From assembly GCA_902788555.1 (NCBI GenBank), contig CADAKQ010000009.1, positions 45,166 through 109,165 of the forward strand: a stretch of 64,000 nt of DNA. The letters are read 5' to 3'. Position numbers and translations under genes: made by a program. Each line of letters begins with the position of its first letter. The first letter of the stretch is position 1. This DNA comes from an uncultured Lachnospiraceae bacterium. Lineage in GTDB: Bacteria; Bacillota; Clostridia; Lachnospirales; Lachnospiraceae. Shown in pieces: positions 32,302 through 63,999 of this stretch. The notes under the pieces were generated by a model, which worked only from the letters and a program-made list of their open reading frames with translations, had not been told where the DNA came from and made no database searches.

Positions 32302-32329
32302 GGCTATTGCTGTGACATTGATAGCGTTG

Positions 32330-32367
32330 AAGCGGAGGTTGCCGCTTAAGAAAATAAGCGGGTTTTT
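32330..32367 (+). promoter_or_regulatory. Candidate terminator/antiterminator in the S10 leader
   Basis: CCGCTT at 32342-32347 can pair upstream with AAGCGG (32330-32335), or downstream with AAGCGG (32356-32361). The downstream pairing makes a 7-bp hairpin followed by GTTTTT, an intrinsic terminator. The two hairpins are mutually exclusive, so this looks like an attenuator. Its ligand would be inferred, for example a ribosomal protein. Confidence 0.5.
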
Positions 32368-32398
32368 CGTGGAGCGAATGTCAATTAATAATAACTGG

Positions 32399-32510
32399 CG
32401 ACAAGTCACTGTACTTAATAACCATCTGCCAAGGGCAGAGATGACGTGTGAAAATCATAATGAAGAAAATTATGACACACACGGGAAAGTTGTACAGTCA
32501 CCGCTTGTCG
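32399..32510 (+). promoter_or_regulatory. Structured part of S10 leader
   Basis: Long-range helices CGACAAG/CTTGTCG (32399-32405 / 32504-32510) and CTGTAC/GTACAG (32409-32414 / 32492-32497) enclose two inner hairpins, one at about 32422-32445 and one at 32446-32480. A multi-branched leader of this kind suggests autogenous control of the operon. Confidence 0.5.
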
Positions 32511-48687: not shown

Positions 48688-48697
48688 ATTGTGTAGG

Positions 48698-48976
48698 GTC
48701 GGCTGAATTTGCAGGGTATAACTGCTTGGATTAAGGTATTGATGGCGCATAAAAATATACAGGTATATCAAGGACGCGCTCTCGCTCGTGCTCGACGCAG
48801 GCTCACTAACCTCAATAAAATAGGATATTATCTGTTTTGCATAAATGCAATCAGCTAATATCCTATTTTATTTCGCTAAGTGAGCGCGTCTCACAACGGT
48901 CCTTTTATATACCTGTATATTTTTATGCGCCAATTAAAATTGTCTAATCAAGCAGTTATACCCATATTCAGCCGAC
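48698..48976. repeat. 279-bp nested imperfect palindrome
   Basis: Perfect arms fall in register: 11 bp (48698-48708 / 48966-48976), 15 bp (48714-48728 / 48949-48963), 25 bp (48744-48768 / 48907-48931), 7 bp (48801-48807 / 48879-48885) and 17 bp (48814-48830 / 48856-48872). The apical loop contains TTGCAT-AA-ATGCAA. It has no gene. The shape fits a MITE-like or other foldback element; no target duplication was recognised. Confidence 0.8.
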
Positions 48977-49027
48977 ACGCTGCGCGTGAATATAGAAAAA
49001 ATCTTGTAAAGTTATTTGATAAAAAGT

Positions 49028-49234
49028 TTATCTTAATAATTTGGGATTATCTGTTCGTTCAAGTAAATAATCAATTGATACATCAAAATAATCAGCGATT
49101 TTAATTAATGTAGCATAATCTGCTTCATGAGCGCCGGTTTCATATCTGCTTATTGTATTTTGATTCATTGATAAGTCTAATGCGAGCTTCAATTGTGATA
49201 TATGATTTTTTTCACGTAATTCTTTTAATCTCAT
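49028..49234 (-). CDS. XRE-family regulator, divergent from surface gene 1
   Basis: 68 residues, almost only a helix-turn-helix domain (ISQLKLALDLSMNQNTISRY, then a 'I-D-Y-L-L-E-R' end). ATG 49234 follows AGGAG; the frame from 49252 adds six residues across the ribosome binding site. Two matching ~15-bp operator-like sites lie in the divergent promoter region, so it probably controls itself and the surface gene at 49336. Confidence 0.85.
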   Translation of the reverse strand: MRLKELREKNHISQLKLALDLSMNQNTISRYETGAHEADYATLIKIADYFDVSIDYLLERTDNPKLLR

Positions 49235-49335: not shown

Positions 49336-50787
49336 ATGAAATTAAAAAAATGTGTAGCTATAGCGATATTTGGAATCATGACTATGATTGGAAGCTTCTG
49401 GTATACCGATATTAATGTTAAGGCGGATGATGTAGAAGAGTTGGATGATTGGCTTGAAGTGAATGAAGATAATTTTCCTGATGAAAATTTTAGAAAATGT
49501 GTGTTGGAAGGGTTTGATATAGACGGTGATGGAAAAATAAATCCGGAAAATCCGGAGTGGGAATATTGTTTTAGGCTTAGCTATATGAATATTTCATCTC
49601 TTAAAGGCATTGAATATTTTAAGAATATTGAAATTCTTGATATATCACATACAAATGTGGATAGTTTGGATTTAAGTGAAATAGATGTATATTCACTAAA
49701 TATATCTTTTACGCCTATTAAGACCATAGATATAAGTTCTCATCCTGAATTATGTAGAGGATACGAGGGTGGCGTCCATGGGATGAATGGGGCAACTGAT
49801 ATGAATCCAGGTTATTTATATATTGATAATACTCAGATTGTCATTTCGTCAGAGCCTATTAAGGCCATAACGATCATGGTTCCTGAAATAAGAGGTAATA
49901 TTTATTTAAATAATCTTTCGAATTTTGATTCGAGCTTTTTGAATGGAGTTGAAAAAGCAAACAGTCTGAGTAAGTTAAGTTTCAATTCAGATGATAATAT
50001 CTTATATTATGATTTGACTAATAATTATGGGGATTTTAATTATGATATAAGATCAGCAGATTATGAAAATGTGCATATATATAGTGATTATTACGGTGAT
50101 GATCATGAGTATTTTAGTGGAAGAAAATATAAATATTATGAATGTAGCTTATCCTATGATGAAATACTTAATTATGTTTCTGAATATGAATATGAGTACG
50201 AAAATGTTGAATTAAGAATTTTATATGGAACTCACTGTTTTTCTGCTTATGAAGGATTTAGTTTTTATAAAGACGATGCGGGCAATGTTCGTTGCTATGA
50301 TTCTGACGGCAATCCTGTTATCAATGAATTCAAATGCGACGGTACATACACCTACTACTTCCAGGCGGACGGTACAGCCATGAAGGACAGGCTTACCTAT
50401 CATCCGGATGGAGAGCATGTTATCTATTTCGACAGCGAGGGACACGAGGTGTTCTCAGACTTTGCAAATGTTAAGAAGACTATTGCGGGAGATGAAGTAA
50501 ATGATTTTTGCTTCTTTGATGTATTCGGATATATGTATGTAGATGTGGTTACTTATGACAAGACCGGTACAGTTCTTTACTATGCCAATGCATACGGCGT
50601 TATGGAGATGGGCAAGTGGTTCCAGTTCTCCGATAACGTAACCTGGGCAGACGGCAGAGAAGGTGATGAGTTTAAAGGCGGCTACGGTTATGCAAATACC
50701 GATGGAACCCTTATGACGAATACCCAGACAACCGACTGGGAAGGAAGAAACTGTTATCTCCAGGGTAATGGAGTTGCACTTTATTAG
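49336..50787 (+). CDS. Secreted LRR protein with wall-binding-like C-terminal module (family member 1)
   Basis: 483 residues. Signal peptide (~1-30). The pattern N-F-P-D-E-N-F-R follows, with an EF-hand-like D-I-D-G-D-G-K-I, typical of the cap of Firmicutes leucine-rich-repeat proteins. Short LRR-like repeats come next (I-S-S-L-K-G-I-E-Y, I-E-I-L-D-I-S). The shared ~180-residue module (from ~300) has glucan/choline-binding-like repeats (T-Y-Y-F-Q-A-D-G-T-A-M-K-D-R, V-I-Y-F-D-S-E-G-H-E-V-F) and ends G-N-G-V-A-L-Y. Probably non-covalently attached outside the cell; no LPXTG. AGGAGG upstream. Ligand unknown. Confidence 0.7.
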   Translation: MKLKKCVAIAIFGIMTMIGSFWYTDINVKADDVEELDDWLEVNEDNFPDENFRKCVLEGFDIDGDGKINPENPEWEYCFRLSYMNISSLKGIEYFKNIEILDISHTNVDSLDLSEIDVYSLNISFTPIKTIDISSHPELCRGYEGGVHGMNGATDMNPGYLYIDNTQIVISSEPIKAITIMVPEIRGNIYLNNLSNFDSSFLNGVEKANSLSKLSFNSDDNILYYDLTNNYGDFNYDIRSADYENVHIYSDYYGDDHEYFSGRKYKYYECSLSYDEILNYVSEYEYEYENVELRILYGTHCFSAYEGFSFYKDDAGNVRCYDSDGNPVINEFKCDGTYTYYFQADGTAMKDRLTYHPDGEHVIYFDSEGHEVFSDFANVKKTIAGDEVNDFCFFDVFGYMYVDVVTYDKTGTVLYYANAYGVMEMGKWFQFSDNVTWADGREGDEFKGGYGYANTDGTLMTNTQTTDWEGRNCYLQGNGVALY

Positions 50788-50810
50788 TATAGTTTGTTTT
50801 TAAAATAAAA

Positions 50811-50843
50811 GGGAGTGCTGCACGATTTTCGTGCAACACTCTC
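50811..50843. terminator. Terminator after surface gene 1
   Basis: GGGAGTG/CACTCTC outer stem (one G-T) and GCACGA/TCGTGC inner stem, T-run following. It also faces the antisense nuclease pseudogene end. Confidence 0.7.
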
Positions 50844-50870
50844 TTTGCTTGTTTTGATTTAAATGCAAAA

Positions 50871-51430
50871 TTATGATTGGTTAAGCTTAGCCTTAAGTTC
50901 TTCAATTTCTTTTGTAAGCTCGGCTATGGTGTTGTTTTGGTCGGCTATAGTATTTCTTTGTTCGGCAAGCAATTCTTCGCTTTCAGCCCTGCCTTCATCC
51001 TTACCAGCCCAGAATATTTTGTCAGCTTCGGTAACAATTACGTTCCCACCCATATTCTTCACCAGATTCCTTTCATTTTCATTACCGTTTGTTACATGTC
51101 GTTTAGCTCTTTAGTAGTTGCAGTTTCATCCTTCATAATGCTTTCATATCTGAGTATGTAAAAAGGTATTAAAACATAAAACTTCTTTTCTGTTATTTCT
51201 TCTTTTGTAAAATCACTTAATATCAGATTGTCGGCATCATAATCAACTGCTTCACCGTTTGGAAACTTATATGTGATTTTTGCCCTTTTAGGTGTTGCAG
51301 AATTGCTTCTAATGTAGATGACGGTGTAGTATGGCATCTCGATTATCAGACGTCCGTTATCCTTTTTAGCAGCCTGCCTTGCAGTAAGAAATGAATACTC
51401 AGCAATCCTTTTTTCAATATCATGCTTGCA
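50871..51430 (-). pseudogene. Rpn/PDDEXK_2-family nuclease, decayed copy 1
   Basis: C-terminal part of a recombination-promoting-nuclease/putative transposase family protein. Readable segments: I-A-E-Y-S-F-L-T-A-R-Q-A-A-K-K, then Y-K-F-P-N-G-E-A-V-D-Y, then a stop. After a deletion with frameshift near 51060-51105 the coiled-coil tail follows (A-G-K-D-E-G-R-A-E ... E-I-E-E-L-K-A-K-L-N-Q-S). The N-terminal part, including the catalytic half, is missing beyond about 51430. Same tail and same 3' flank as copies at 53836 and 63439. Confidence 0.7.
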
Positions 51431-51472
51431 TCAATTGTAACTCTACAATAAGAAAGATATGGAAAATTACAC

Positions 51473-51501
51473 TTGTTTGGTGCGGACAATTATGATAGAA
51501 T
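51473..51501 (+). promoter_or_regulatory. Promoter of surface gene 2
   Basis: TTGTTT (51473-51478), 17-nt spacer, TAGAAT (51496-51501), 40 bp before the start codon. Confidence 0.5.
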
Positions 51502-51541
51502 AAATGCTATATTGAAGAGTTCATTTAAAGAGGAGAATGGT

Positions 51542-53752
51542 ATGATTGAAAAAGTAAAAAAGATAATCTGGCTTTTAATACTTTGTTTATTTATCTGTAG
51601 TGATTGTATAACTTTAAATGCTGCTGAGGATGATAACCTGCCAACACCTCATTCACAAGATTCATATGGGAGGATTCGTAAATCAAGCTTATCTGTTACG
51701 GATGATGGTTATATGAGAGTCTACTATAACGGTCAAATGATTTGTATAGAGTTTTATGATTTTAATTTTAATTTATTGAGTAAGAAATCTGTTGATATGG
51801 AGTTGTCATATTGGGGTGGCTTTTATGCCGGTGAGAAATATTATTATATTGCTGTGGGACAGGATAATGACGAAGAGGATGATACAGCAGAGGTTTTGCG
51901 TATAATTAAATATGACAAAAACTGGAATAGATTAGGCGCAGCAAGTATTACAGGTAATTTGCAATTATTTGATGGTGGCGTAACAACTGTCTTTGATCAT
52001 GGACATGCAGCTTTTACGGAACGTAATGGAACTCTTTATCTGGCTACGGGTCATGGTGGATATAGACTGGGTGATGGACTTCGCCATCAAGGCTTAATAT
52101 TAATTGCGGTCGATACTGATAGTATGACCGGCGAGATAATAAGAAGTGATTTATTGCATTCGTTTGCACAATGTATGGCTCATGATGAAGACTATGTATA
52201 TCTTGCTGAGTTAAGTGATGCTCAAAAAAGCATATTGCTTTCACAATATGAGGGTTCCGGAGTTGACACGAAAACAAAAAATACAATTAAAGCCTTAGAG
52301 ATAGGAGATGTCAGTTGCGCTAATCTGGATGATATGGCTTTATCTGCAGATAATGTATTTTGCCTAGGCACTTCTGTTGACCAGACAAAATATGGAAAGG
52401 AAGAAAATCTTTCATACAATATATATCTTACAGTGACACCTAAAAATAATTTTACGGAAGAATCTACGACATTAAAATGGATAACTGATTATAATGACGG
52501 ATATTCCGGTTATACGTTTAGGGATTTGCATATTACCAAAATAAATGATAATAGATTTATGATTGCATGGACTAAGTTTGGAAATGGTGAGGCACCCGAA
52601 TCTATAAATACATATGATGATATTTTGTCAGGAGCTTATATGCATTATGTTTTCGTTGATGGCAATGGAGATATTATAGGTAAGGAAAATACGTGTTTAT
52701 CTGCTTCTATGACTGACTGCCGGCCTGTCTTGAATGGCACAAGTATATCATATTACGCTTCGGATGATATGAATGTTGGCTTTTATACAATAGATGCATA
52801 CTCAGGTGAGGCAGATAAGAAAGTCTACAGGATAGCGGGTAAGGATGCGGTATGGGATATAGATGGAGATGTACTTACCATAAGTGGTGCAGGAAAAGTA
52901 GAATATACATATCAGTTTTGGCCTTATGATATTCATAAAAAAATAAAAAAGATTGTATTTGAAGATGGTATAGAAGAAATCTCAGAAAGATCATTTGCAC
53001 ACTTTGAAAATCTCACGGAGGTTGTTATACCGGATAGTGTTACATATATTGGTAGTGAGGCTTTTTTTGTAAATTCGTTTTACTCGTCAAGGCACAAAAT
53101 AGTAATATGCGGAAATGATGGTTCCTATGCGGAGCAATATGCGAATTATAATAAGTTAGACTTTAAAAGTCCTTCAGGGAATGTTAAAGTTGCAGATTTT
53201 ATTTTTGCCTCATATGAGAATTGTGACTTCTACAAAGACGCATCAGGTGATGTACGCTGTTATGACAGCAAGGGCAAGCCAGTCATAAACGATTTCAAAT
53301 GTGATGGCGAATATACTTACTACTTCCAGGCGGACGGTACAGCCATGAAGGACAGACTTACATATCATCCTGACGGAATTCATGTCATCTATTTTGATGA
53401 AAATGGACACGAGGTATTCTCAGATTTTGCGAATGTAAAGAAAACCATTGCAGGCGAAGATGTAAATGATTTTTGCTTCTTTGATGTATTCGGATATATG
53501 TACGTAGATGTACTTACCTACGACAAGACAGGTACAGTACTCTACTATGCTAACCCATATGGTGTTATGGAGATGGGCAAGTGGTTCCAATTTTCAGATA
53601 CTGTTAAATGGGCAGATGGTACATCTGCGGAAGGTATCGCAGGTGGCTATGGCTATGCCGATGCCGATGGTACACTTCTTACTAACACCCAGACGACAGA
53701 TTGGGAGGGAAGAAGCTGTTATCTGCAGGGCAACGGAGTTGCACTTTATTAG
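51542..53752 (+). CDS. Secreted protein with propeller-like and BspA-like repeats and wall-binding-like module (member 2)
   Basis: 736 residues from ATG 51542, which follows GAGGAG; the frame from 51473 runs over the promoter. Signal peptide (~1-27). A long beta-rich domain of unknown fold follows (~45-430, repeated short W/Y/D-rich strands, possibly propeller-like). A BspA-type LRR stretch comes next (~440-545: I-K-K-I-V-F-E-D-G-I-E-E-I, L-T-E-V-V-I-P-D-S-V). The shared C-terminal module (from ~560) is close in sequence to member 1. BspA-like domains often bind host or partner proteins; the ligand is unknown. Confidence 0.68.
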   Translation: MIEKVKKIIWLLILCLFICSDCITLNAAEDDNLPTPHSQDSYGRIRKSSLSVTDDGYMRVYYNGQMICIEFYDFNFNLLSKKSVDMELSYWGGFYAGEKYYYIAVGQDNDEEDDTAEVLRIIKYDKNWNRLGAASITGNLQLFDGGVTTVFDHGHAAFTERNGTLYLATGHGGYRLGDGLRHQGLILIAVDTDSMTGEIIRSDLLHSFAQCMAHDEDYVYLAELSDAQKSILLSQYEGSGVDTKTKNTIKALEIGDVSCANLDDMALSADNVFCLGTSVDQTKYGKEENLSYNIYLTVTPKNNFTEESTTLKWITDYNDGYSGYTFRDLHITKINDNRFMIAWTKFGNGEAPESINTYDDILSGAYMHYVFVDGNGDIIGKENTCLSASMTDCRPVLNGTSISYYASDDMNVGFYTIDAYSGEADKKVYRIAGKDAVWDIDGDVLTISGAGKVEYTYQFWPYDIHKKIKKIVFEDGIEEISERSFAHFENLTEVVIPDSVTYIGSEAFFVNSFYSSRHKIVICGNDGSYAEQYANYNKLDFKSPSGNVKVADFIFASYENCDFYKDASGDVRCYDSKGKPVINDFKCDGEYTYYFQADGTAMKDRLTYHPDGIHVIYFDENGHEVFSDFANVKKTIAGEDVNDFCFFDVFGYMYVDVLTYDKTGTVLYYANPYGVMEMGKWFQFSDTVKWADGTSAEGIAGGYGYADADGTLLTNTQTTDWEGRSCYLQGNGVALY

Positions 53753-53772
53753 TATAGTTTGTTTTTAAAATA

Positions 53773-53811
53773 AAAGGGAGTGCTACACGGTTTTCGTGCA
53801 ACACTCCCTTT
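53773..53811. terminator. Terminator after surface gene 2
   Basis: 10-bp stem AAAGGGAGTG / CACTCCCTTT with inner CACG/CGTG pairs. Nearly the same sequence as the terminator at 50811, from the shared 3' flank. Confidence 0.75.
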
Positions 53812-53835
53812 GTTAGTTTTGATTTAAACGCAAAA

Positions 53836-54408
53836 TTATGATTGATTAAGTTTTGCCTTAAGTTCCTCAATCTCTTTTGTAAGTTCAGCTATTATTTTGT
53901 CGCTTTCAGCCCTGCCTTCAGCTAAACCTTCAGCTCGACCTTCATCCTTACCAGCCCAGAATATTTTGTCAGCTTCGGTAACAATTACATGTCCACCCAT
54001 ATTCTTCACCAGATTCCTTTCATTTTCTTTTCTATTATTTCTTCTTTTGTAAAATCGCTTAATATCAGATTGTCGGCATCATAATCAACTGCTTTACCGT
54101 TGGGAAACTTATATGTGATTTTCGTCCTTTTAGGTGTTGCAGAATTGACCAGACGTCCGTTATCCTTTTTAGCAGCCTGCCTTGCAGTAAGAAATGAATA
54201 CTCAGCAATCCTTAAAGCTATTGAACCGTCGTTGTAGCTTTGACATTCTATCAGATACTTTTCATCACGTATTTTGATGATGAAATCTGTAATTAATTAA
54301 GGGTATGAAAAACCTCGGATGGTTACTCTTAAGAGACTGGAATACGTCATCAAAGGTGTTTGAATAATCAGTATTATTACCCTTATTATTGTCAGTTTTA
54401 TAAGTCAT
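53836..54408 (-). pseudogene. Rpn/PDDEXK_2-family nuclease, decayed copy 2
   Basis: Start codon kept (ATG at 54408-54406, GGGGGAAG upstream). The N-terminal block D-D-V-F-Q-S-L-K-S-N-H-P-R-F-F-I-P-L-I-N matches the family. Then internal deletions: the catalytic core is lost after L-I-N; a second gap removes the E-M-P-Y-Y-T-V-I-Y stretch; a third fuses E-E-I-I-E-K to E-N-E-R-N. The tail (D-E-G-R-A-E-G-L-A-E-G-R-A-E) and K-L-N-Q-S end are kept. Not functional as read. Confidence 0.75.
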
Positions 54409-54424
54409 AACTTATTCTTCCCCC

Positions 54425-54746
54425 TTATTGTACAATATAGTATATTTGATTTCAATAATTTTGTGTGTAAAATAAAATATAAAAATAATCTCATCACCTG
54501 CCTTTTCTTAAGTTTTTTTAATCTTTAGTAAGGTATTAAGCAGGATAATTCTTTGGATTGTAGGAGAAATCCTAAATGTTGATTACATTTGTAAAAGATA
54601 TTTATCTGCTTGTGAGAATGATACTACATAATTAGACAAAATGCAACAGAAAATTACTCCGGAACATGGGGGACATGTGGAAGACTTCAACTGACAATTT
54701 CTTTACTCCAACATTTAGAAAAGTATTAATCTATAGTTTGATTAAC
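54425..54746. other. Gene-free stretch before surface gene 3
   Basis: AT-rich, no open frame of note and no recognisable family. It holds only a small hairpin GGATT...AATCC near 54554-54571. Confidence 0.6.
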
Positions 54747-54775
54747 TTGAACAAAATTAGGTATCATGATATAAT
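54747..54775 (+). promoter_or_regulatory. Promoter of surface gene 3
   Basis: TTGAAC (54747-54752), exact 17-nt spacer, TATAAT (54770-54775), 55 bp before the ATG. Confidence 0.7.
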
Positions 54776-54830
54776 TTCGTCTGAGTGGTAAATATTCTTA
54801 ACCGGTATTAATACAATCAAGGAGGTAATT

Positions 54831-56984
54831 ATGTTTAAACAGAAAAGGTTAGAAGCAAAAAAATTAATTTATGTATTATTGGCTGTAATTGTTGTAATTG
54901 TTTATTTCAAGAGTGTGCAGGCAAGAGAGGTATTTAGTGCTGATTCTTATGAAGATATTAAAGACGGAACGAAGATATCTTATCAGTCGGATAATGATGA
55001 AACTGAAATAATCGGATACCACTTTAATCTGGATAAGGATGCAAAGTGTACATTTAAAGGAAAATATTCTACCGGCCTTACGATTATGTTCAATTTAATT
55101 GATGATAATAAGAACGAAATTCTTTGGTCATGGGTTGGTCTTGGCTCAAATGATTTGGATTTTTCGGTATATTTAAAAAAAGGTGACTATTATTTTAATT
55201 TAGAAAAGTATAGCAAAACGGAGCTTTCTCTTGATTTTGACATTGAATACTTGGAAAACAGTGATATTGAGAATAATGACAAGATTGAGACTGCTCAAGC
55301 TATAGATTGTGGCAAATCACAGTCGGGAGCTTTTTTGTATAATGATTATGTTGATGTATATAAATTTGAGGTACCGTATTCGGGAGAAGTAACATATGGT
55401 GTGAGTGTTGAATCATCTTGTGGCAGTTTGTTTTTGAATTCGAATTCAGAGTGGAGCTCTGTTGGTAACTTACAGGTGGGCTCCCAGCTTTATGATTCAA
55501 AGGGAGAAAAAGTAAGTTTAAGCTACTCTTCAAGTGACGGAAAATATCATACGGGTAAAGTAAATGCCGGTACCTATTATCTGGAGATAAGTAAACTTGG
55601 TTCAAATAACACTCCTTCGGGATATGGAATATCTTATTTGGAGTTGTGTGGAACGTACAAATTCGATATAGAGATTCCTTCGTTAAAAGATTCTGTGGGC
55701 TCAAAATTTTCAACATATGAAGGTTATGAATTCTATAAGGATGAAAACGGAGATGTGAGATGTTTTGACTCTTCAGATAATTTGGTGATTAATGAATTTA
55801 AGTGTGATGGAACATATACATATTATTTTCAGTTGGATGGAACAGCTATGAAGGATAGACTATCTTATCATCCTGATGGAACACATATAATATATTTTGA
55901 TGGAGCAGGTCATGAGGTGTTCAGTAATTTTTCACATGTAAAAAAGAGTATAGCCGGAGAGCCGGTAGATGACCTTTGCTTCTTTGATGTGTATGGTTAT
56001 ATGTATGTAAATGTACTCACATTTAACCAAAGCGGAACAGCGCTTTATTATGCAAATCCGTATGGTGTTATGGAGTGTAATGGATGGTTTCAATTTGCAG
56101 AAGGTGCAGGTGGAGTAGCAGAGCCGCTTGGTGCCGCAGAGGGCAAATGGGGATATGCTTACTCAAATGGAGTAATAGATGCTGGAAGTATAGGGGATGA
56201 GAGTGTTAAGACAACATTTGTACCTGTTCAAGCAACAGAAGTACCGGAAAAAGCAATTAAACCTCTTACTTATTTTTCTGGAAATAAACCGGTTAAGAAA
56301 ATGGGTGAAGGTGATCAGGCATCTGAATTCAAGTATGATGAAAACGGTAATCTTATTGAATACTATTCCGGTGGCAGACTTTTAGAAAAATATGAATATA
56401 ACAGCAAGAATAATTTAACCAAAGAAGTAATGGTACTTGAGGATGGCAGTGAAGAAGTAACCGTTACCTATGAATATAATGGAAATCAAGCTAAGGAAAC
56501 CATTTATAATCCTAATGATGCCGGCGTTGATTTTTACTACATTTATGATTTCGACGAATTTGGAAAGCTTGTAAAGTTGACTATGCTTGATAAGGATGGA
56601 AATGTTATAGGATATGATATAATCGACCATACAAATACAGGAAATGAAGAGAAAAATAAATTACTTTATTTCTTTGGAAACGGACCGGATTATATATATC
56701 AGTTCAATACAGCATCATATGGTACAGATGGTTCAGTTTATGATTTTATAGTACATGAATATGATGAAAATGGAAACGAAATAAAATCCATACGTTATTA
56801 TGAAACCGGAGTTGATGTGATAACAACATATGAATATGATGCAAACGGAAATGCCATAAAATCAACAAGCAGTTCTGGCGGATATAGTAATTCAACATAT
56901 TATGAGTATGATGCAGAAGGAAATTTATCAAAGATAATATGGGGTGATGGAGCGGATGCCGGTTACATTACCTTTGAATATTAA
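54831..56984 (+). CDS. Secreted PPC-domain protein with internal wall-binding-like module and YD repeats (member 3)
   Basis: 717 residues. Signal peptide or anchor helix (~12-30). The N-terminal region has two beta-rich parts. The second fits a pre-peptidase C-terminal (PPC) domain: E-N-N-D-K-I-E-T-A-Q-A-I-D, then D-V-Y-K-F-E-V, G-T-Y-Y-L-E-I. The shared module (~290-460) is here internal and more diverged (F-S-H-V-K-K-S-I-A-G-E-P-V). It is followed by YD/RHS-like repeats (~485-717: Y-D-E-N-G-N-L-I-E-Y, Y-E-Y-D-A-N-G-N-A-I). AAGGAGG precedes the ATG. Function unknown, probably surface adhesion or scaffold. Confidence 0.68.
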   Translation: MFKQKRLEAKKLIYVLLAVIVVIVYFKSVQAREVFSADSYEDIKDGTKISYQSDNDETEIIGYHFNLDKDAKCTFKGKYSTGLTIMFNLIDDNKNEILWSWVGLGSNDLDFSVYLKKGDYYFNLEKYSKTELSLDFDIEYLENSDIENNDKIETAQAIDCGKSQSGAFLYNDYVDVYKFEVPYSGEVTYGVSVESSCGSLFLNSNSEWSSVGNLQVGSQLYDSKGEKVSLSYSSSDGKYHTGKVNAGTYYLEISKLGSNNTPSGYGISYLELCGTYKFDIEIPSLKDSVGSKFSTYEGYEFYKDENGDVRCFDSSDNLVINEFKCDGTYTYYFQLDGTAMKDRLSYHPDGTHIIYFDGAGHEVFSNFSHVKKSIAGEPVDDLCFFDVYGYMYVNVLTFNQSGTALYYANPYGVMECNGWFQFAEGAGGVAEPLGAAEGKWGYAYSNGVIDAGSIGDESVKTTFVPVQATEVPEKAIKPLTYFSGNKPVKKMGEGDQASEFKYDENGNLIEYYSGGRLLEKYEYNSKNNLTKEVMVLEDGSEEVTVTYEYNGNQAKETIYNPNDAGVDFYYIYDFDEFGKLVKLTMLDKDGNVIGYDIIDHTNTGNEEKNKLLYFFGNGPDYIYQFNTASYGTDGSVYDFIVHEYDENGNEIKSIRYYETGVDVITTYEYDANGNAIKSTSSSGGYSNSTYYEYDAEGNLSKIIWGDGADAGYITFEY

Positions 56985-57001
56985 GATAAAAAGAGGTGCT
57001 T

Positions 57002-58411
57002 ATGGAAAAAAGAAAGAAAAGAATTTCTTTAATACTTTTAATTATATTAATTATAAGTGTTGTAATGGTTAAGCAACCTTCACGGGAAATTAAGGCTGCA
57101 TTTGTGGCACCGCATTATGATATCCGTGAAGACGGGGGAAGCTGGGATGGAACGTACTATACTTTAAATAATGAAGTAATAAAGGATGCTTTTTTCTGTG
57201 ACGGAACATATACCTACTTTTTGCAGTCGGACGGTAAACCTATGAAGGATAGATTGTCATATCATCCGGATGGCGAGCATATCATTTACTTTGATTCGGA
57301 AGGGCATGAGGTGTTCTCGGATTTTGCAAATGTAAAGAAAACAATCGCCGGAGATGAGGTAAACGATTTTTGTTTCTTTGATGTTTATGGATATATGTAT
57401 ATTGACGTGGTAACTTATGACAAAACAGGAACAAATCTTTATTATGTAAATGCTTGTGGTGTTATAGAGATGGATGAATGGTTTCAGTTTTCCGAAAATG
57501 TTACTTGGGCAGACGGAAGGGATGGAACGGAGTTTGCCGGACAGTACGGTTGTGCAAATGAAGACGGAAGTCTGGTGGTAAATACACGAACAAAGGATTG
57601 GGATGGAAAACTTTGCTATCTGCAGGGCAACGGAGTTGCGGATTATAATGTAAATGCAAGATATTATCAATTTCCAATCATAAGAACACCGCATGAAAAG
57701 GAATATTACAATAATTATAGCAATAAGAAGATGGGATGGGGCCTTGTAAGAAATACAAATCATGAACCTATAAAATGTGACAGTAGTGTTGCTTTGGCAG
57801 ACTATGATGCATGGTATGTTGATACTCGTGCAACAGAGGATGACAAGGTATTGTATCTGACCTTTGACTGCGGATATGAGAATGGGTACACAGGGCGTAT
57901 ATTGGATATTCTTGCCGCTGAAGATGTTCCGGCATGCTTTTTTGTAACCCAAACATATATAAGAGATAATATAGGATTGACGCAAAGAATGAAAGCAGAA
58001 GGGCATCAGGTTGGGTGTCATACCATAACGCATCCTTCATTGCCAACGAAATCATATGAGGAAATCGAAAGGGAAATATGTGGGTGCGCAGAGTACATGA
58101 AGGCAAATACAGGATATGATATGGATCCATACCTGCGTCCGCCTTATGGAGAGTACAGCGAGAGAACATTGGCAATAACCCATGATTTAGGATTTAAGAC
58201 TATTTTTTGGAGTATAGGATATGTTGATTATAATGTAAATAAACAGCCGGGTGCCGGATACGTAATTGATCATTTTAATACGAACCATCATAATGGAGCC
58301 ATAATTCTTATGCATGCTGTATCCTCATCCAATTGCGAAGCGCTTCAGACGGTTATACAAAATATGAAAGCGGAAGGCTACAGGTTTGCCAGCCTGAATG
58401 AGCTTCAATGA
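57002..58411 (+). CDS. Secreted PdaA-like polysaccharide deacetylase with N-terminal wall-binding-like module (member 4)
   Basis: 469 residues. Signal peptide (~1-28). The shared module (~30-215) comes first here. A NodB-fold deacetylase follows (~255-469) of the PdaA type: T-F-D-C-G-Y-E-N-G-Y (PdaA has TFDNGYENGY), zinc His in C-H-T-I-T-H-P, and R-P-P-Y-G-E-Y-S. PdaA removes acetyl groups on the way to muramic-delta-lactam in spore cortex. Here the fusion suggests action on envelope glycan. ATG 57002 is preferred over GTG 56996. It starts 17 bp after member 3, likely one transcript. Confidence 0.82.
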   Translation: MEKRKKRISLILLIILIISVVMVKQPSREIKAAFVAPHYDIREDGGSWDGTYYTLNNEVIKDAFFCDGTYTYFLQSDGKPMKDRLSYHPDGEHIIYFDSEGHEVFSDFANVKKTIAGDEVNDFCFFDVYGYMYIDVVTYDKTGTNLYYVNACGVIEMDEWFQFSENVTWADGRDGTEFAGQYGCANEDGSLVVNTRTKDWDGKLCYLQGNGVADYNVNARYYQFPIIRTPHEKEYYNNYSNKKMGWGLVRNTNHEPIKCDSSVALADYDAWYVDTRATEDDKVLYLTFDCGYENGYTGRILDILAAEDVPACFFVTQTYIRDNIGLTQRMKAEGHQVGCHTITHPSLPTKSYEEIEREICGCAEYMKANTGYDMDPYLRPPYGEYSERTLAITHDLGFKTIFWSIGYVDYNVNKQPGAGYVIDHFNTNHHNGAIILMHAVSSSNCEALQTVIQNMKAEGYRFASLNELQ

Positions 58412-58432
58412 TGAATTATAATAGCTGACACG

Positions 58433-58485
58433 AAAATAAAGAGGTTTGCATTGCACTTAAATGTGCATACAAACCTCTTTATTTT
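58433..58485. terminator. Bidirectional terminator after deacetylase gene
   Basis: 16-bp perfect stem 58433-58448 / 58470-58485 with an inner TGCAC/GTGCA stem, between convergent genes. Confidence 0.85.
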
Positions 58486-58519
58486 TGACCTTATAATTAG
58501 TTGACTGCCGGTATACATT

Positions 58520-58852
58520 TTAGTTATATTTATCCAAGCTCATTTTAAGTGATTTAATAGTCTCAATAAGTATCTTTGCATCCTTTTCCGAACAGGTATC
58601 CAATAACTCGGAAATTTCCTGCTTGATAAGTGTTTTAACCGAATTAGGATTGTCGTAAAGTAATTCATCTGTGGATACCTGAAGTGTTTCGGCCATTTCT
58701 ACCAGAACAGGAAGGCTTAGCTTGGTGTTTCCTGTCTCGATATGGCTCATGTGTGTAACGGAAATTCCTACCTTTTCAGCAAGCTGCTCCTGCGAAAACC
58801 CGCAGGCCTTTCTTAATCTTCTTATGCGCTGTCCGATTTTATAGTAATCCAT
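58520..58852 (-). CDS. XRE-family regulator, divergent from surface gene 5
   Basis: 110 residues. A helix-turn-helix of SinR-like type (F-S-Q-E-Q-L-A-E-K-V-G-I-S-V-T-H-M-S-H-I-E) fills residues ~8-65. The C-terminal ~45 residues are helical, perhaps for dimerisation. GGTGGTGAG precedes the ATG. The 174-bp divergent gap contains CTATACA/TGTATAG repeats. Probably controls itself and the gene at 59027. Confidence 0.85.
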   Translation of the reverse strand: MDYYKIGQRIRRLRKACGFSQEQLAEKVGISVTHMSHIETGNTKLSLPVLVEMAETLQVSTDELLYDNPNSVKTLIKQEISELLDTCSEKDAKILIETIKSLKMSLDKYN

Positions 58853-58863
58853 TTTCTCACCAC

Positions 58864-58895
58864 CTATACAGTAGAATTATACTTGAATTGTATAG
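58864..58895. promoter_or_regulatory. Operator-like inverted repeat for XRE regulator
   Basis: CTATACA (58864-58870) and TGTATAG (58889-58895) face each other 18 nt apart just upstream of the regulator. A weaker related pair (CTGTGTA ... TTATACAG) lies near 58920-58949. Confidence 0.5.
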
Positions 58896-59026
58896 GCAAT
58901 TATGATAACATTTAATAAACTGTGTAGGCGAAAATGTGCTTATACAGTTAAAATAATTAATAAATAATTTTTTATTATTTTGTAATTTATAGTCACAAAT
59001 ATTAAAAAGAAAGAGGGTAGTGGAAA

Positions 59027-60574
59027 ATGAGAATTAAAAGGTTTATTGGCTTGTCGGCATTAGGCATGGTTCTTACTTTATCAGGGGGATTGTGCTCTGT
59101 AAGCTATGCTTCGGAGGCAGAGGAAGCATCGACGACATATGAAACGGACGAAGGTCAGTCTGTTGAATCTGAGGAGACTTCTAATTATGATTTGGGAGAG
59201 CTGGAAGAAAGTGATATATCGGTTGCTACGATTGATACGGAATCGGAGCCTCTTGTTTTTGATAAGACTATTAAATATACGTTTGAAGAGGGCATTTATC
59301 AGAGGAAGATATATAGAATTAAAATTGAAAAAGATTCTATTTTAAATATCAAAGGTAAGTTTTATGCGATTGAAGGTGGAAATTCAAATATAATGTTTCT
59401 GAACTCTGATTTCGATGAAATAAAGGTAAATGATAATTCAAGAAAAATCAGTAAAGACGCCGGAGTTGTTGATTATGAATATACACTGTGCTTTCCTAAG
59501 GGAACATATTATATGCTTATTTATAATCAGTGGGGAACATTTTATTCAATTGGTGGAAAAAATAAAGATTTAAAAACATTAAGTTATGATTTGTACGCAT
59601 CTGTTGAATATCCTAAGTCATCAGAGATTGAAACAAATGATACTATTAAAACAGCTCAGTCTATAGATTGTAAGGAAACCGTATACGGTATGCTTACATA
59701 TGATGGTGATGATGATATAGATACTTACAGAATTGTTGTGGACTATAAAGGAAAATTAAAAATTGATTTTTCCGGAAGACTTTTAGAAAGTGATTATTAT
59801 TCGATTTATACTGAGTTGCTGGACGCCGAAGGTAAACGTATTACCAGTAAAGGAATTAAATATGATAAGCAATTGGAAACATACAAGGGAACACTTGAAG
59901 AGACTGTAGAACCGGGCGTGTATTATTTGCAATTGTCATGTATAGGAGCACCGAGAGAAGAAGCAGAAAAATACTACTGGTTCGATGTGACACTACCATC
60001 GGAATTTCAGCCTGTCGGAGTAAAATTTGCAGAATATGAGGGATATACATTCTACAAAGATGATTTTAAAGATGTTAGATGTTATGCTTCGGATGGTAAA
60101 CCTGTTATAAATGATTTTAAATGCGATGGCACATACACCTACTACTTCCAGGCTGACGGTACAGCCATGAAGGACAGGCTTACCTATCATCCGGACGGAG
60201 TGCATGTTATCTACTTCGACAGCGAGGGACACGAGGTATTCTCAGACTTTGCAAATGTTAAAAAGACTATTGCGGGAGATGAAGTGGATGATTTTTGCTT
60301 CTTTGATGTATTCGGATATATGTATGTTGATGTAGTAACCTATGATAAAACAGGAACAGTACTCTATTATGCCAATGCTTACGGTGTTATGGAGATGGGC
60401 AAGTGGTTCCAATTCTCCGATAACGTAACCTGGGCAGACGGAAGAGAAGGCGATGAATTTAAGGGTGGTTACGGCTGTGCCAATGCCGACGGAACCCTTA
60501 TTACCAATACCCAGACTGTCGATTGGGAAGGAAGAAGCTGTTATCTGCAGGGTAATGGAGTTGCATTGTATTAA
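59027..60574 (+). CDS. Secreted PPC-domain protein with wall-binding-like C-terminal module (member 5)
   Basis: 515 residues. Signal peptide (~1-29, ending A-S-Y/A-S-E), an acidic Glu/Ser/Thr-rich segment (~30-72), then two beta-rich domains. The second (~198-320) fits a PPC domain (E-I-E-T-N-D-T-I-K-T-A-Q-S-I-D, D-I-D-T-Y-R-I-V). The shared module (from ~335) is nearly identical to member 1's at protein level. GGGTAGTGG is a weak ribosome binding site. Ligand unknown; likely surface protein. Confidence 0.7.
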   Translation: MRIKRFIGLSALGMVLTLSGGLCSVSYASEAEEASTTYETDEGQSVESEETSNYDLGELEESDISVATIDTESEPLVFDKTIKYTFEEGIYQRKIYRIKIEKDSILNIKGKFYAIEGGNSNIMFLNSDFDEIKVNDNSRKISKDAGVVDYEYTLCFPKGTYYMLIYNQWGTFYSIGGKNKDLKTLSYDLYASVEYPKSSEIETNDTIKTAQSIDCKETVYGMLTYDGDDDIDTYRIVVDYKGKLKIDFSGRLLESDYYSIYTELLDAEGKRITSKGIKYDKQLETYKGTLEETVEPGVYYLQLSCIGAPREEAEKYYWFDVTLPSEFQPVGVKFAEYEGYTFYKDDFKDVRCYASDGKPVINDFKCDGTYTYYFQADGTAMKDRLTYHPDGVHVIYFDSEGHEVFSDFANVKKTIAGDEVDDFCFFDVFGYMYVDVVTYDKTGTVLYYANAYGVMEMGKWFQFSDNVTWADGREGDEFKGGYGCANADGTLITNTQTVDWEGRSCYLQGNGVALY

Positions 60575-60600
60575 TGGCAGCAGATAGATAAAAGGAGGAA

Positions 60601-62007
60601 ATGTGGGTTTTCCGCAAGAATAAGATGGATAATAATTTTAACAATAACCAAAAAAGTGATATGAATAATGCATCAAATGATTATCAAAATAATTATCAAA
60701 ATAATTACAATAATCCTTATAATGTGCCATACAATAATGAGTTTCAACAGGGATATGGTCAGCAACCATATAATATGCAACAGGGATACGGACAGCAGCT
60801 ACCGAAAAAGCCTCGAAAGCCTATAAAGGCTAAGTGGATTGTTATTCCGGTTTTAGTTATATTGGCAATCATTTGTGTAGTAGTATTTATAAAGACAAGA
60901 AAGGTAAAAGTAAAGCTTGATAAATACATAACTATTGAGTATGCAGGATATGATTCCAAAGGACAAGCATATGCTACCTTTGATGTAGCTAAGTTTTACA
61001 GGGACTATGGCGATAAGATAGAACGGACAAATGCAAAAAAGAAAGCTCTTAAGAGTGAATGGGGAGGTCTTTATAGTGAGGTTTTAAAGGAATCAAAACC
61101 TGTTGAGGATTTATATGAGGATTGTATCAGAGGCAGCTTGAATATTTCCAATAATCTTAGCAATGGTGATACGATAACATATGAATGGGATATCAATACA
61201 AAAAAGGCATTGGAATATTATAATTGCGAGATAGAATTCAGCAATATTAATTTTATTGTATCCGGATTGGAAGAGGTAAAGGATTTCAATCCATTTGATT
61301 ATATCGAGATCACCTATTCGGGAACAGCACCAAACGGAACTGCTTCCATAGCAAAGGATACCTCGGTATCGGAAATGAATGATGTTTATTTTACAATTGA
61401 CAAAGACAGCGGTCTAAGTGTTGGCGATACGATAACCGTTACAGCATCTGCATATAATTCGGATGATTATTTTATGGAACATTATGGTGAAAAGATTGCC
61501 AAGACGGAGGAAAGCTATACTGTTGATGGAATACCTCACTACGTTGCTGATGTAAATGAAATCCCTTCGGATATTATGGACAAAATGTCTTCTCAGGGAG
61601 AAGACGCAATTAGAGCATACGTAGCAAATGATTGGGAAAAGCCTGAAAATCTTACAGGTTTAACACTGGTGGGAAATTATTTCCTGACACCTAAGTCGGG
61701 TATGGATGTAAGAACAAATAATTATTTGTATCTGATATATAAAATATCCGCAATCAATCCTGACCCGGAGGAAAACATAGATTTTTATTATTATGTATGT
61801 TTTACTGACATAATTATGCTTGCGGATGGAACCTGTTCCGTAGATTTGAGCAGCTACTCAGTGCCTGCATACGGATGGTTTGATTCAGAAGGCTTTAAGG
61901 TTGGCAATTATACATATGTAGGATATGAGAATTTAGATTCTTTATTTAATAATATGATAGTTACAAAAATTGAAAACTACGAATATACTTCTACAGTTCA
62001 GGAGTAA
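60601..62007 (+). CDS. Single-pass membrane protein with Asn/Gln-rich N terminus, unknown
   Basis: 468 residues. Asn/Gln/Tyr-rich N-terminal ~65 residues, a basic stretch, one membrane helix (~80-98) and a ~370-residue extracytoplasmic beta-rich region. Two similar parts are visible (Y-I-T-I-E-Y-A-G-Y-D-S-K-G and Y-I-E-I-T-Y-S-G-T-A-P-N-G), suggesting repeated Ig-like domains. Start is uncertain: ATG 60601 lies only 2 nt after AAAGGAGG; ATG 60625 gives M-D-N-N-F. It follows member 5 by 26 bp, so may be its partner. No family recognised. Confidence 0.65.
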   Translation: MWVFRKNKMDNNFNNNQKSDMNNASNDYQNNYQNNYNNPYNVPYNNEFQQGYGQQPYNMQQGYGQQLPKKPRKPIKAKWIVIPVLVILAIICVVVFIKTRKVKVKLDKYITIEYAGYDSKGQAYATFDVAKFYRDYGDKIERTNAKKKALKSEWGGLYSEVLKESKPVEDLYEDCIRGSLNISNNLSNGDTITYEWDINTKKALEYYNCEIEFSNINFIVSGLEEVKDFNPFDYIEITYSGTAPNGTASIAKDTSVSEMNDVYFTIDKDSGLSVGDTITVTASAYNSDDYFMEHYGEKIAKTEESYTVDGIPHYVADVNEIPSDIMDKMSSQGEDAIRAYVANDWEKPENLTGLTLVGNYFLTPKSGMDVRTNNYLYLIYKISAINPDPEENIDFYYYVCFTDIIMLADGTCSVDLSSYSVPAYGWFDSEGFKVGNYTYVGYENLDSLFNNMIVTKIENYEYTSTVQE

Positions 62008-62010
62008 GTG

Positions 62011-62050
62011 AATATCGCCGCAACAATATCAAATTGGCTGTGGCGATATT
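62011..62050 (+). terminator. Terminator after 60601 gene
   Basis: AATATCGCC/GGCGATATT, 9-bp perfect stem, T-rich end. Confidence 0.65.
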
Positions 62051-62113
62051 TGGATTCAAAAGATATTCTTCACTAAAATATTAATCTAAATAATAAAGAG
62101 AAGGGGATATTTA

Positions 62114-63039
62114 GTGAAAAAATCATTTTTAAAAAAAATTACTAAAAAGCTCACATCAATATGCATAGCTGCTGCCATGGCACTTGGGGTTATATCAATA
62201 TCGGATACAAAACTTGATGTGAAGGCGGCATTTGATGCGCAACTTACTACGAATTAAATCATCAAATTATTAAAGATGCTTTTTTCTGTGACGGATATTT
62301 TACATATTATATGCAGATGGACGGAACGGCTATGAGAGACAGGCTCACTTATCATCCGGACGGAGAGCATGTTATTTACTTCGATGAAAAAGGTCACGAG
62401 GTTTTTAACAGCTTTGTAAATGTCAGGAAGAGTATAGCCGGTGAAGATGTAAATGATTTTTGTTTCTTTGATGTGCATGGATACATGTATACGAATGTGC
62501 TGACATACAATCAGGACGGAACGGCACTTTACTATGCAAATCCATACGGAGTTATGGAACGAAGCGGATGGTTCCAATTTGCAGAGGGTGCAGGCGGAGT
62601 TGCCGGGGCACTCGGTATAACGGAAGGCACTTGGGGATATGCCTATTCTGATGGTCGGGTAGATCCGGAAAGCATAGGAGATGAAAGCGTAAAAAACAGT
62701 TTTAAACCGAACTATACACATCAGCACATTTGGGAAAATGTCGGACATACTGAACCAAGGTACTATCGTGTTGACACAGGCGAGGATGTAACGGACGGAC
62801 AGATTGTTGCTGTTGATGGTCAGTTGTGCATAATAACTGGTTACATTGGTGGTTATCAATGCTTAGTTTGTGGAACTAAAGTAAATTCAGCTCAAGAAAT
62901 AGATGATCATGTATGGGGGACTCATAATGGTGAAGCAAATTATGGAACATGGCAGGAACCAATCTATGTTGCAGTTACCCAGAAATCAATCTATGTTGAA
63001 GACTACCAGAGATGTATATCCTGTGGCACGAGAAAATAA
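62114..63039 (+). pseudogene. Frameshifted secreted wall-binding-like protein (member 6)
   Basis: GTG 62114 opens a clear signal peptide (V-K-K-S-F-L-K-K ... A-A-A-M-A-L-G-V) and stops at 62258. The remaining coding sequence continues in another frame (A-T-Y-Y-E-L-N-H-Q-I-I-K-D-A-F-F-C-D-G) through the shared module to 63039. Removing one GC from GCGC at 62237-62240 restores the frame and matches member 4. The tail has two C-x-x-C-G knuckles (C-L-V-C-G, C-I-S-C-G). It could be a recent mutation, phase variation or a read error. Confidence 0.75.
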
Positions 63040-63078
63040 AAAATGATAACAAATAAAAAGAAAACGGAGGAAGGCAAT

Positions 63079-63361
63079 ATGAAGATGAAGGGAATAATAA
63101 CAGCAACAGTATGTGGACTTTTGTTGGCACTTGGTGGAGGCACAGCTTGCCTAAATAGTTATGCAGAGGACAATAGGACATGAGGTGTTCTCAGACTTTG
63201 CAAATGTCAAAAAGACTATAGCGGGAGATGCGGTTGATGATTACTGCTTCTTTGATGTATTCGGATATATGTATGTAGATGTGGTTACATATGATAAGAC
63301 CGGTACGGTTCTTTATTATGCCAATGCATACGGCGTTATGGAAATGGTGTAGCACTTTATT
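63079..63361 (+). pseudogene. Remnant of a wall-binding-like surface protein (member 7)
   Basis: An intact signal peptide (M-K-M-K-G-I-I-T ... L-N-S-Y-A) after GGAGG is fused out of frame, through D-N-R-T-stop, to the middle of the shared module (G-H-E-V-F-S-D-F). The module is then cut after G-V-M-E-M and joined to the last codons (GTAGCACTTTATTAG). Both junctions look like internal deletions. Non-functional. Confidence 0.75.
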
Positions 63362-63376
63362 AGTATAATTTGTTTT

Positions 63377-63438: not shown

Positions 63439-63999
63439 TTATGATTGGTTAAGCTTAGCCTTAAGTTCTTCGATTTCTTTTGTAAGCTCGGCTATGGTGT
63501 TGTTTTGGTCGGCTATAGTATTTCTTTGTTCGGCAAGCAATTCTTCGCTTTCCGCTCTGCCTTCTGCCCTGCCTTCATCTCTGCCAGCCCAGAATATTTT
63601 GTCAGCTTCGGTAACAATTACATGTCCCCCCATATTCTTCACCAGATTCCTTTCATTTTCATTACCGTTTGTTACATGCCTGATAATCATATCCATATAC
63701 GTGATAAAGTTGTTGTAATCATATCCGCTTATGGATTCATTATGAAATGATTCTGCAAGGAAGCCAAGGAAGAAGTCTAAGTCGGTTTCAACCTCGTTAA
63801 GCTCATCCGTAGTTGCATTTTCATCCTTCATAATGCTTTCATATCTGAGTATGTAAAACGGTATTAAAACATAAAGCTTCTTTTCTATTATTTCTTCTTT
63901 CGTAAAATCGCTTAATATCAGATTGTCGGCATCATAATCAACTGCTTTACCGTTGGGAAACTTATATGTGATTTTCGTCCTTTTAGGTGTTGCAGAATT
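63439..63999 (-). CDS. Rpn/PDDEXK_2-family nuclease, copy 3, 5' end outside window
   Basis: Open to the window edge in one frame (187 codons seen). Contents: N-S-A-T-P-K-R-T-K-I-T-Y, I-L-S-D-F-T-K-E-E-I, F-Y-I-L-R-Y-E, then a helical D-F-F-L-G-F-L-A-E-S block, A-D-K-I-F-W-A-G-R-D-E-G-R-A-E and a coiled coil with N-N-T-I-A repeats. Family members promote DNA recombination in E. coli (Rpn). This copy keeps segments that the other two have lost, so it may be the intact one. Catalytic residues would lie beyond the window. Confidence 0.72.
   Translation of the reverse strand, partial: NSATPKRTKITYKFPNGKAVDYDADNLILSDFTKEEIIEKKLYVLIPFYILRYESIMKDENATTDELNEVETDLDFFLGFLAESFHNESISGYDYNNFITYMDMIIRHVTNGNENERNLVKNMGGHVIVTEADKIFWAGRDEGRAEGRAESEELLAEQRNTIADQNNTIAELTKEIEELKAKLNQS

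Follow-up and report, generated by a model that had tools for sequence, protein, structure and literature searches.

A divergent choline-binding-type module, probably a wall anchor, joined to many putatively secreted proteins in a Lachnospiraceae genome

Many secreted proteins of streptococci are known, and some of Butyrivibrio are reported, to be held at the cell by short hairpin repeats. In Streptococcus pneumoniae and S. mitis, choline-binding proteins carry choline-binding repeats (CBR, PF01473/PF19127), a hairpin-solenoid anchor which is usually C-terminal and reused on many unrelated secreted proteins (PMC4929436, PMC2828477). Two pneumococci encode 12 and 14 such proteins and S. mitis B6 encodes 22 (PMC2828477). 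For Butyrivibrio proteoclasticus, nine cell-associated proteins are reported that are secreted, degrade polysaccharides and end in PF01473 repeats, to which a wall-holding role is ascribed (PMC2914790). Here, a module of ~182 residues is described which recurs seven times in a 64,000-nucleotide stretch (the window) of an uncultured Lachnospiraceae bacterium (GCA_902788555.1, contig CADAKQ010000009.1, positions 45,166 to 109,165) and many more times elsewhere in this genome. B. proteoclasticus is also a member of the Lachnospiraceae.

In contrast to the streptococcal choline-binding proteins, more than 50 proteins carry the module here, as a fixed ~182-residue block which also exists in a short N-terminal form; moreover, its choline cage is mostly lost and four congeners that encode it have no detected LicD. 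Relative to the Butyrivibrio PF01473 proteins, copies in the window do not reach the Pfam cut-offs, and the partners are more varied. The glucan-binding repeats of glucansucrases and the repeat domains of clostridial toxins share the same solenoid fold (Foldseek). These repeats, however, form arrays on one enzyme or toxin, whereas here a short fixed module is found on dozens of proteins. What appears to be new is how many proteins carry the module, its fixed block with few cage residues, its occurrence in two positional forms and its very patchy distribution, and a literature search of open-access papers found no published account of this module. Quite probably, the module is a divergent choline-binding-type self-anchor which radiated from conserved founders and was joined to many partners. 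As a predicted hairpin solenoid of the choline-binding/glucan-binding repeat superfamily, it would most likely act like the choline-binding module of pneumococcus and attach secreted proteins, without a covalent bond, to a wall polymer of the same cell. It would descend from a few conserved founders (one form that is C-terminal on a DUF5722 protein, another that is short and N-terminal), and repeated joining of the founder module to new partner domains would have given rise to the more than 50 such proteins in one species, with the window locus as one ~20-kb island of the genome-wide set.

The seven copies counted in the preliminary description are real: tblastn with one copy as query (E ≤ 1e-3) recovers all of them within 50239-63346, with E values of 2e-124 to 9e-31. 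Copy 1 shares 59-91% identity with the others (six of seven copies aligned), and the module is C-terminal in three copies, internal in one, N-terminal in one, part of a frameshifted gene in one and a remnant in the last (Table 1). The partners named at the time were mostly right, comprising a weak LRR-like part, BspA-type LRR_5, RHS/YD repeats and a PdaA-like deacetylase, while the proposed "PPC" domain has no Pfam match. In module gene 4, the deacetylase part matches Polysacc_deac_1 (E 4e-34) and TIGR02884 (E 3e-74, under the TIGR02884 cut-off), and genes 3 and 5 share an unnamed N-terminal domain (27% identity, E 1e-13). A cluster is indeed present, but it is larger than first thought, extending ~5 kb past the window on contig C9 with two further module genes (C9:110085-112316 and C9:112367-114052). 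The idea that this locus is the site of diversification is not supported either, as it is one of many: the source genome (2,703,902 bases) contains 63 module matches on 26 of its 54 contigs (six-copy profile, E ≤ 1e-5, fragments included), or 61 at 1e-10 and 65 with a wider profile at 1e-3.

From these matches, 62 open reading frames (ORFs) were extracted and the 59 with a strong match kept for architecture, of which 53 carry a near-complete module. The module lies at the very C-terminus in 38 ORFs, is followed by more than 100 residues in 17 and takes another position in four. Blastp single linkage (E 1e-6) sorts the partner parts into 28 groups, so that the idea of one wall-binding-like module with many partners is borne out. 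According to Pfam, run on 55 of the 59 ORFs, the enzyme partners comprise GH53, a GDSL lipase, M15 and C39 peptidase domains, two transglutaminases and two deacetylases (one with ChW), and the other partners comprise DUF5722, LRR/DUF285, RHS/YD, Listeria-Bacteroides repeats, Big, YDG and MBG. In a YD-type group of eight genes, six with RHS or DUF2963 matches, the partner is N-terminal of the module in four and C-terminal in four. Signal-like N-termini are found in 42/52 module ORFs as opposed to 45/139 neighbours, by a hydropathy rule made for this analysis. Contig ends lie in or beside module genes at the ends of C4, C36 and C30 and the starts of C42, C38 and C6, and the assembly seems to break at the module repeat.

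The predicted fold places the module in a known superfamily. An AlphaFold (AF2) model built from 40 rows (predicted local distance difference test, pLDDT, 96; predicted template modelling score, pTM, 0.84) is a chain of beta-hairpins, six by reading of the model, with strands about 22 residues apart. The model thus fits ~20-residue beta-hairpin repeats stacked as a solenoid, as in the choline-binding repeat superfamily (CW_binding_1 type). Among the best 50 of 81 Foldseek matches in the PDB at E ≤ 0.001, the glucansucrase GtfD has the best E value, followed by the choline-binding module of LytB and then by LytC, CbpL, CbpF, LytA, CbpJ and clostridial toxin repeat domains; CbpJ has the highest structural score (TMq 0.63). 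At the sequence level, the module profile matches C-LytA with E 1.4e-5. Choline-binding profiles score 16-19 bits in three window proteins against a cut-off of 27, and no window copy passes the curated Choline_bind_3 or TIGR04035 cut-offs in profile scans of the window proteins. Two module genes elsewhere, counted with the neighbours, just reach Choline_bind_3 (27-27.5 bits). Furthermore, true choline-binding repeats, together with a GDSL lipase, adjoin the module in one protein of the same genome (C2:505-2646).

Several points weigh against a wall anchor of this descent. Two aromatic residues, usually Trp, hold choline in the published repeat consensus (PMC4929436), and this cage, mapped by eye from that consensus onto 40 rows, appears mostly missing. 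At the first cage position, the six hairpins mostly have Phe, Leu, Phe, Val, Trp and Thr, with Trp in one, and at the second, the four mapped hairpins have Thr, Val/Ile, mixed residues and Leu. Because the cage is not conserved, any ligand named here is putative, and the wall-binding role is a prediction. Many partner parts match no Pfam family. Copy counts are approximate because the draft is 88.7% complete and has contig ends inside modules. Finally, in some pairs outside the window the likeness continues past the module into the partner, and so not every copy is a fresh fusion. LicD was detected in 30/37 genomes of the genus, with four matches in the source genome, and was not found in G007, G020, G021 and G026, which encode 6-12 modules each and are 95-100% complete. 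The module may therefore work like a choline-binding module, yet its proteins are not filed as choline-binding proteins, because the cage is mostly lost and LicD was not found in these four module-rich congeners.

It is unlikely, if the best placed of the alternatives, that the module binds a glycan from outside (plant, mucin or another bacterium) and not the wall of the cell that makes it. The fold is that of glucansucrase glucan-binding domains, which give the best Foldseek match by E, the TIGR04035 glucan-binding repeat matches the module weakly, and glycan enzymes are among the partners (GH53 here, GH9 in a relative). Against this, the module also occurs with partners that probably act on peptidoglycan or have no part in glycan handling, such as the deacetylase, M15, transglutaminase, LRR and YD proteins. 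In addition, the DUF5722 modules of the source genome and of SIG298 are, in their second half, more like their genome-mates than like their orthologs, as expected if there is one ligand per cell, although those of the other four genomes tested do not show this against their nearest orthologs.

Radiation within one lineage, as the self-anchor reading supposes, is supported by the distribution. In the genus, 8/37 genomes have a match at 1e-10, and 61 matches in the source genome stand against at most 12 in any of the 36 congeners (12, 7, 7, 6, 6, 2 and 1 in those with matches). In an even sample of the family, 4/397 genomes are positive, the source genome included (at most eight candidates scored per genome). 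Judged by rplQ, found in 34/37 genomes, the nearest congeners are G027, G012, G030 and G013 (94-97% identity); the module was found in none of these four (84-97% complete), and the wider profile at E 1e-3 did not change this. A scan of named genome contigs gave 41 loci, spread over 13 Lachnospiraceae and other Clostridia, whether cultured or not, including Roseburia hominis An869 and Eubacterium sp. MSJ-21. The tandem order is not special to the window, because several of these related loci also have tandem module genes. In five loci (L103, L104, L114, L116 and L118), an N-form module is followed by a C-terminal part of ~190-310 residues without a Pfam family, possibly an unnamed conserved domain. 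Sortase, present in 32/37 genomes of the genus, does not set the module genomes apart.

The two proposed founders may correspond to two groups in a tree of 88 modules (53 from the source genome and 35 from 35 of the 41 related loci), for which five of the seven window copies were taken in and the bootstrap had not settled. One clade (99/92) holds 35/38 C-form modules of the source genome, and another group (88/95) unites all 15 of its N-positioned modules with three relatives, of which two occupy a C-terminal position. A DUF5722-module gene is present in all five congeners with at least six modules, with a partner of 58-63% identity and the module directly after it, and two other congeners have a DUF5722 homolog of 40-43% identity with a different C-terminus. 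The DUF5722 modules do not form one clade (approximately unbiased (AU) test, p 0.0003, for a group named after the tree was seen). This result was considered as proof of gene conversion and set aside, since separate radiation from the founder in each lineage yields the same tree. The DUF5722 modules of the near species UBA7076, NALB_7863 and NALB_7823 do group by ortholog there, which speaks against rapid homogenisation.

Pairwise comparisons of the DUF5722 modules differ between genomes. In the source genome and SIG298 (two of the six tested), the module's second half is closer to genome-mates than to orthologs; in UBA7076 and the two NALB genomes, the modules are as close or closer to the near-species ortholog; and CAMEEX mostly shows the opposite of the source genome and SIG298. 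The pattern fits modules having radiated lineage by lineage from a founder, whether or not some homogenisation took place as well. A tentative and rather doubtful extension is a species dialect, in which the modules of one cell share one lineage-specific version because all would have to read one lineage-specific wall polymer. DUF5722 orthologs of distant species would then have modules that resemble those of their genome-mates but not one another, a pattern which is clear in 2/6 genomes. If true, the module would act as the key to a lock that differs from lineage to lineage, and its expansion would mark a species that moved much of its secreted surface onto one non-covalent anchor.

The copies could also have been spread by mobile DNA, with MITE-like (miniature inverted-repeat transposable element-like) palindromes or a small cassette carrying module genes round the genome. 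One module gene (C33:4404-6191) does lie between direct copies of a ~200-bp palindrome (C33:4185-4394 and C33:6635-6865), which are 97% and 100% alike in two ungapped blocks and 90% alike with gaps, and the island in the window likewise has a palindrome at its left edge. Of 18 palindrome places, listed by hand with E up to 9e-4, eight are at most 2 kb from a module ORF, a zone covering 10.1% of the genome (p 2e-4). Three of these places, however, are query elements chosen at module genes, and without them the count is 5/15 (p 0.013); just six palindromes come as close as 500 bp to any of the 62 module ORFs, and no target-site duplication or transposase came to light. Such a spread is considered decidedly unlikely.

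The self-anchor reading further supposes that partners changed while the module was kept, and here an earlier proposal of exchange round the module is upheld. In three window pairs, DNA identity is 0.23-0.40 over the final 30 bp ahead of the module, 0.53-0.67 over the module's first 30 bp and higher thereafter. Since likeness between copies ends at the module edge, partners have plainly been swapped round the module. Copies 1 and 2, whose N-parts have no significant likeness (best E 0.01 over 34 residues), remain alike beyond the module end for about 300 bp, reaching into a broken convergent gene; this is evidence of exchange because selection on the module cannot act there. Among 13 partner-homologous pairs, a far younger module is found in C13:118983 and C30:29519 alone, with partners saturated at four-fold sites (0.39, n 106) and modules at 0.78 (n 69; Fisher p 2e-7). 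In one of the other 12 pairs it is the partner that is younger (partner 0.81, module 0.58). Differences in the remaining pairs are small, the widest being 0.21 vs 0.48 at about 30 sites each (p 0.03 before correction).

Most copies nevertheless appear old. Over the 1378 pairs of the 53 modules of the source genome, median amino-acid identity is 0.66, while median four-fold-site identity is 0.42 as opposed to a random expectation of 0.376. Four-fold sites are near saturation, and the likeness of most pairs has therefore been kept by protein-level selection and not by recent copying. Recent pairs are few, three of them having a four-fold identity of 0.78-0.90. Between each module and its nearest paralog, median four-fold identity is 0.62, with 6/53 at 0.75 or above, values which are biased upward as the best of up to 52; for comparison, orthologs of the source genome and G027 outside the ribosomal cluster have a median of 0.66 (31 genes, interquartile range 0.47-0.84).

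These ages bear on the preliminary description's suggestion of an actively recombining archive, in which copies, broken ones included, would serve as donors for ongoing gene conversion of expressed surface proteins. Two broken module copies in the locus, contig ends inside modules, the younger module of C13:118983 and C30:29519 and a Sawyer-type run test on 36 full copies whose value was reached by just 5/1000 permutations would all agree with it. In the same test, however, 0/630 single pairs reached p<0.001, the other 12 partner-homologous pairs lack a clearly younger module, and no recombinase was found among the island genes in family scans of island proteins. Nor does the set resemble an antigenic-variation archive of silent partial copies and recent identical tracts, because 53/59 modules are near complete, 42/52 module ORFs have signal-like starts of their own and most pairs are near four-fold saturation. 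The suggestion is accordingly abandoned as improbable, and recent gene conversion is rejected as the general cause of module likeness for most copies by the four-fold, pairwise and Sawyer-type tests; the copies would mostly be old fusions, with no sign of an active archive. An assembly or binning artefact pooling copies from several genomes is hardly credible: the draft is in 54 contigs with ends inside modules, but a single contig joins rplQ, module genes and ecf genes in congener order, most modules of the source genome group together in the tree, and contamination is 1.15%.

In the source genome, the locus is a ~20-kb island, mostly of module genes, between rplQ and ecfA-ecfT-truA (named from Pfam matches of its own genes). 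The stretch behind rplQ was compared in 20 of the 33 rplQ-bearing congeners: ecfA-ecfT-truA lies downstream in 18/20, within ~0.7 kb in 12, and other genes (0.9-9 kb) intervene in six. None of the 20 has a module gene in this position, and the island is special to the source genome within this sample; the site itself looks like an insertion hot spot. An imported flank (recombination tract) round the island was considered, as four-fold identity between the source genome and G027 climbs away from it, from 0.47 to 0.94. This reading was dropped, as G027 and G012 dip at the same genes and low values occur at many genes along the contig. The left-edge palindrome would form a DNA hairpin (z -15.4), and related elements occur close to some of the other module genes. 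Fragments of elements related to the C33 palindrome lie just behind further module genes at C13:60646, C16:59568 and C38:314.

Table 1. Positions of island features within the window.
Feature	Position	Strand	Description
Imperfect palindrome, 300 bp, MITE-like	48690..48990		Island left edge, directly after rplQ terminator
Small Cro/C1-type helix-turn-helix (HTH) gene	49028..49234	-	HTH_3 E 5e-15; divergent from module gene 1
Module gene 1	49336..50787	+	Weak LRR; C-terminal module 50239-50784
Broken convergent gene, copy 1 of 3-copy unit	50877..51460 (ends approximate)	-	
Module gene 2	51473..53752	+	BspA-type LRR_5; C-terminal module 53204-53749
Broken convergent gene, copy 2	53840..54430 (ends approximate)	-	
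Module gene 3	54831..56984	+	N-terminal domain, internal short-form module 55707-56168, RHS/YD repeats
Module gene 4	56996..58411	+	N-terminal module 57116-57646 and PdaA-like polysaccharide deacetylase
Cro/C1-type HTH gene	58520..58852	-	HTH_3 E 9e-16; divergent from module gene 5
Module gene 5	59027..60574	+	C-terminal module 60026-60571; N-part akin to that of gene 3
Cargo gene without module	60601..62007	+	468 residues, Asn/Gln-rich N-terminus
Module gene 6, frameshifted	62114..63039	+	Module 62248-62661
Module remnant 7	63161..63363	+	Module stretch 63176-63346; internal deletion removed module end
Convergent gene, copy 3	63439..63999	-	Continues beyond window, there apparently split in two

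Among the remaining island genes, the two HTH genes, each divergent from a module gene, are possible local regulators. In module gene 6, the signal-peptide frame from 62114 ends with a stop at 62257. The cargo gene product has one hydrophobic stretch (by eye) and no family match in Pfam. The copies of the convergent gene, located behind module copies 1, 2 and 7, share descent with the preceding module 3' end. An identity as a recombination-promoting (Rpn, PD-(D/E)XK) nuclease was considered and is not claimed, copy 3 matching neither this nor any other Pfam family. Neighbours of module genes elsewhere in the genome were tallied (139/148 neighbours, 25 of 217 families listed), and PDDEXK_2 matches 4/139 of them, given as a count over all neighbours. 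At gathering thresholds, a scan of the window together with five further stretches (143.5 kb) gave no riboswitch or known RNA leader at module genes. The sole RNA match, at 32319-32404, is an S10-Clostridia ribosomal protein leader (Rfam RF03136), in the place upstream of the ribosomal cluster where such a leader is expected. DNA common to the upstream regions of several module genes was likewise discarded as a leader, as it is mostly the module of the preceding gene.

With more than 50 proteins on one predicted non-covalent anchor, this genome exceeds the 12-22 of the streptococcal genomes compared (PMC2828477), and the bacterium belongs to a gut-type lineage. The module makes it testable how one anchor is kept on dozens of changing partners, what the anchor reads with the choline cage mostly gone, and why the nearest relatives have none. 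More generally, the case shows that a cluster which stands out at one locus can represent a minor portion of a radiation across the whole genome.

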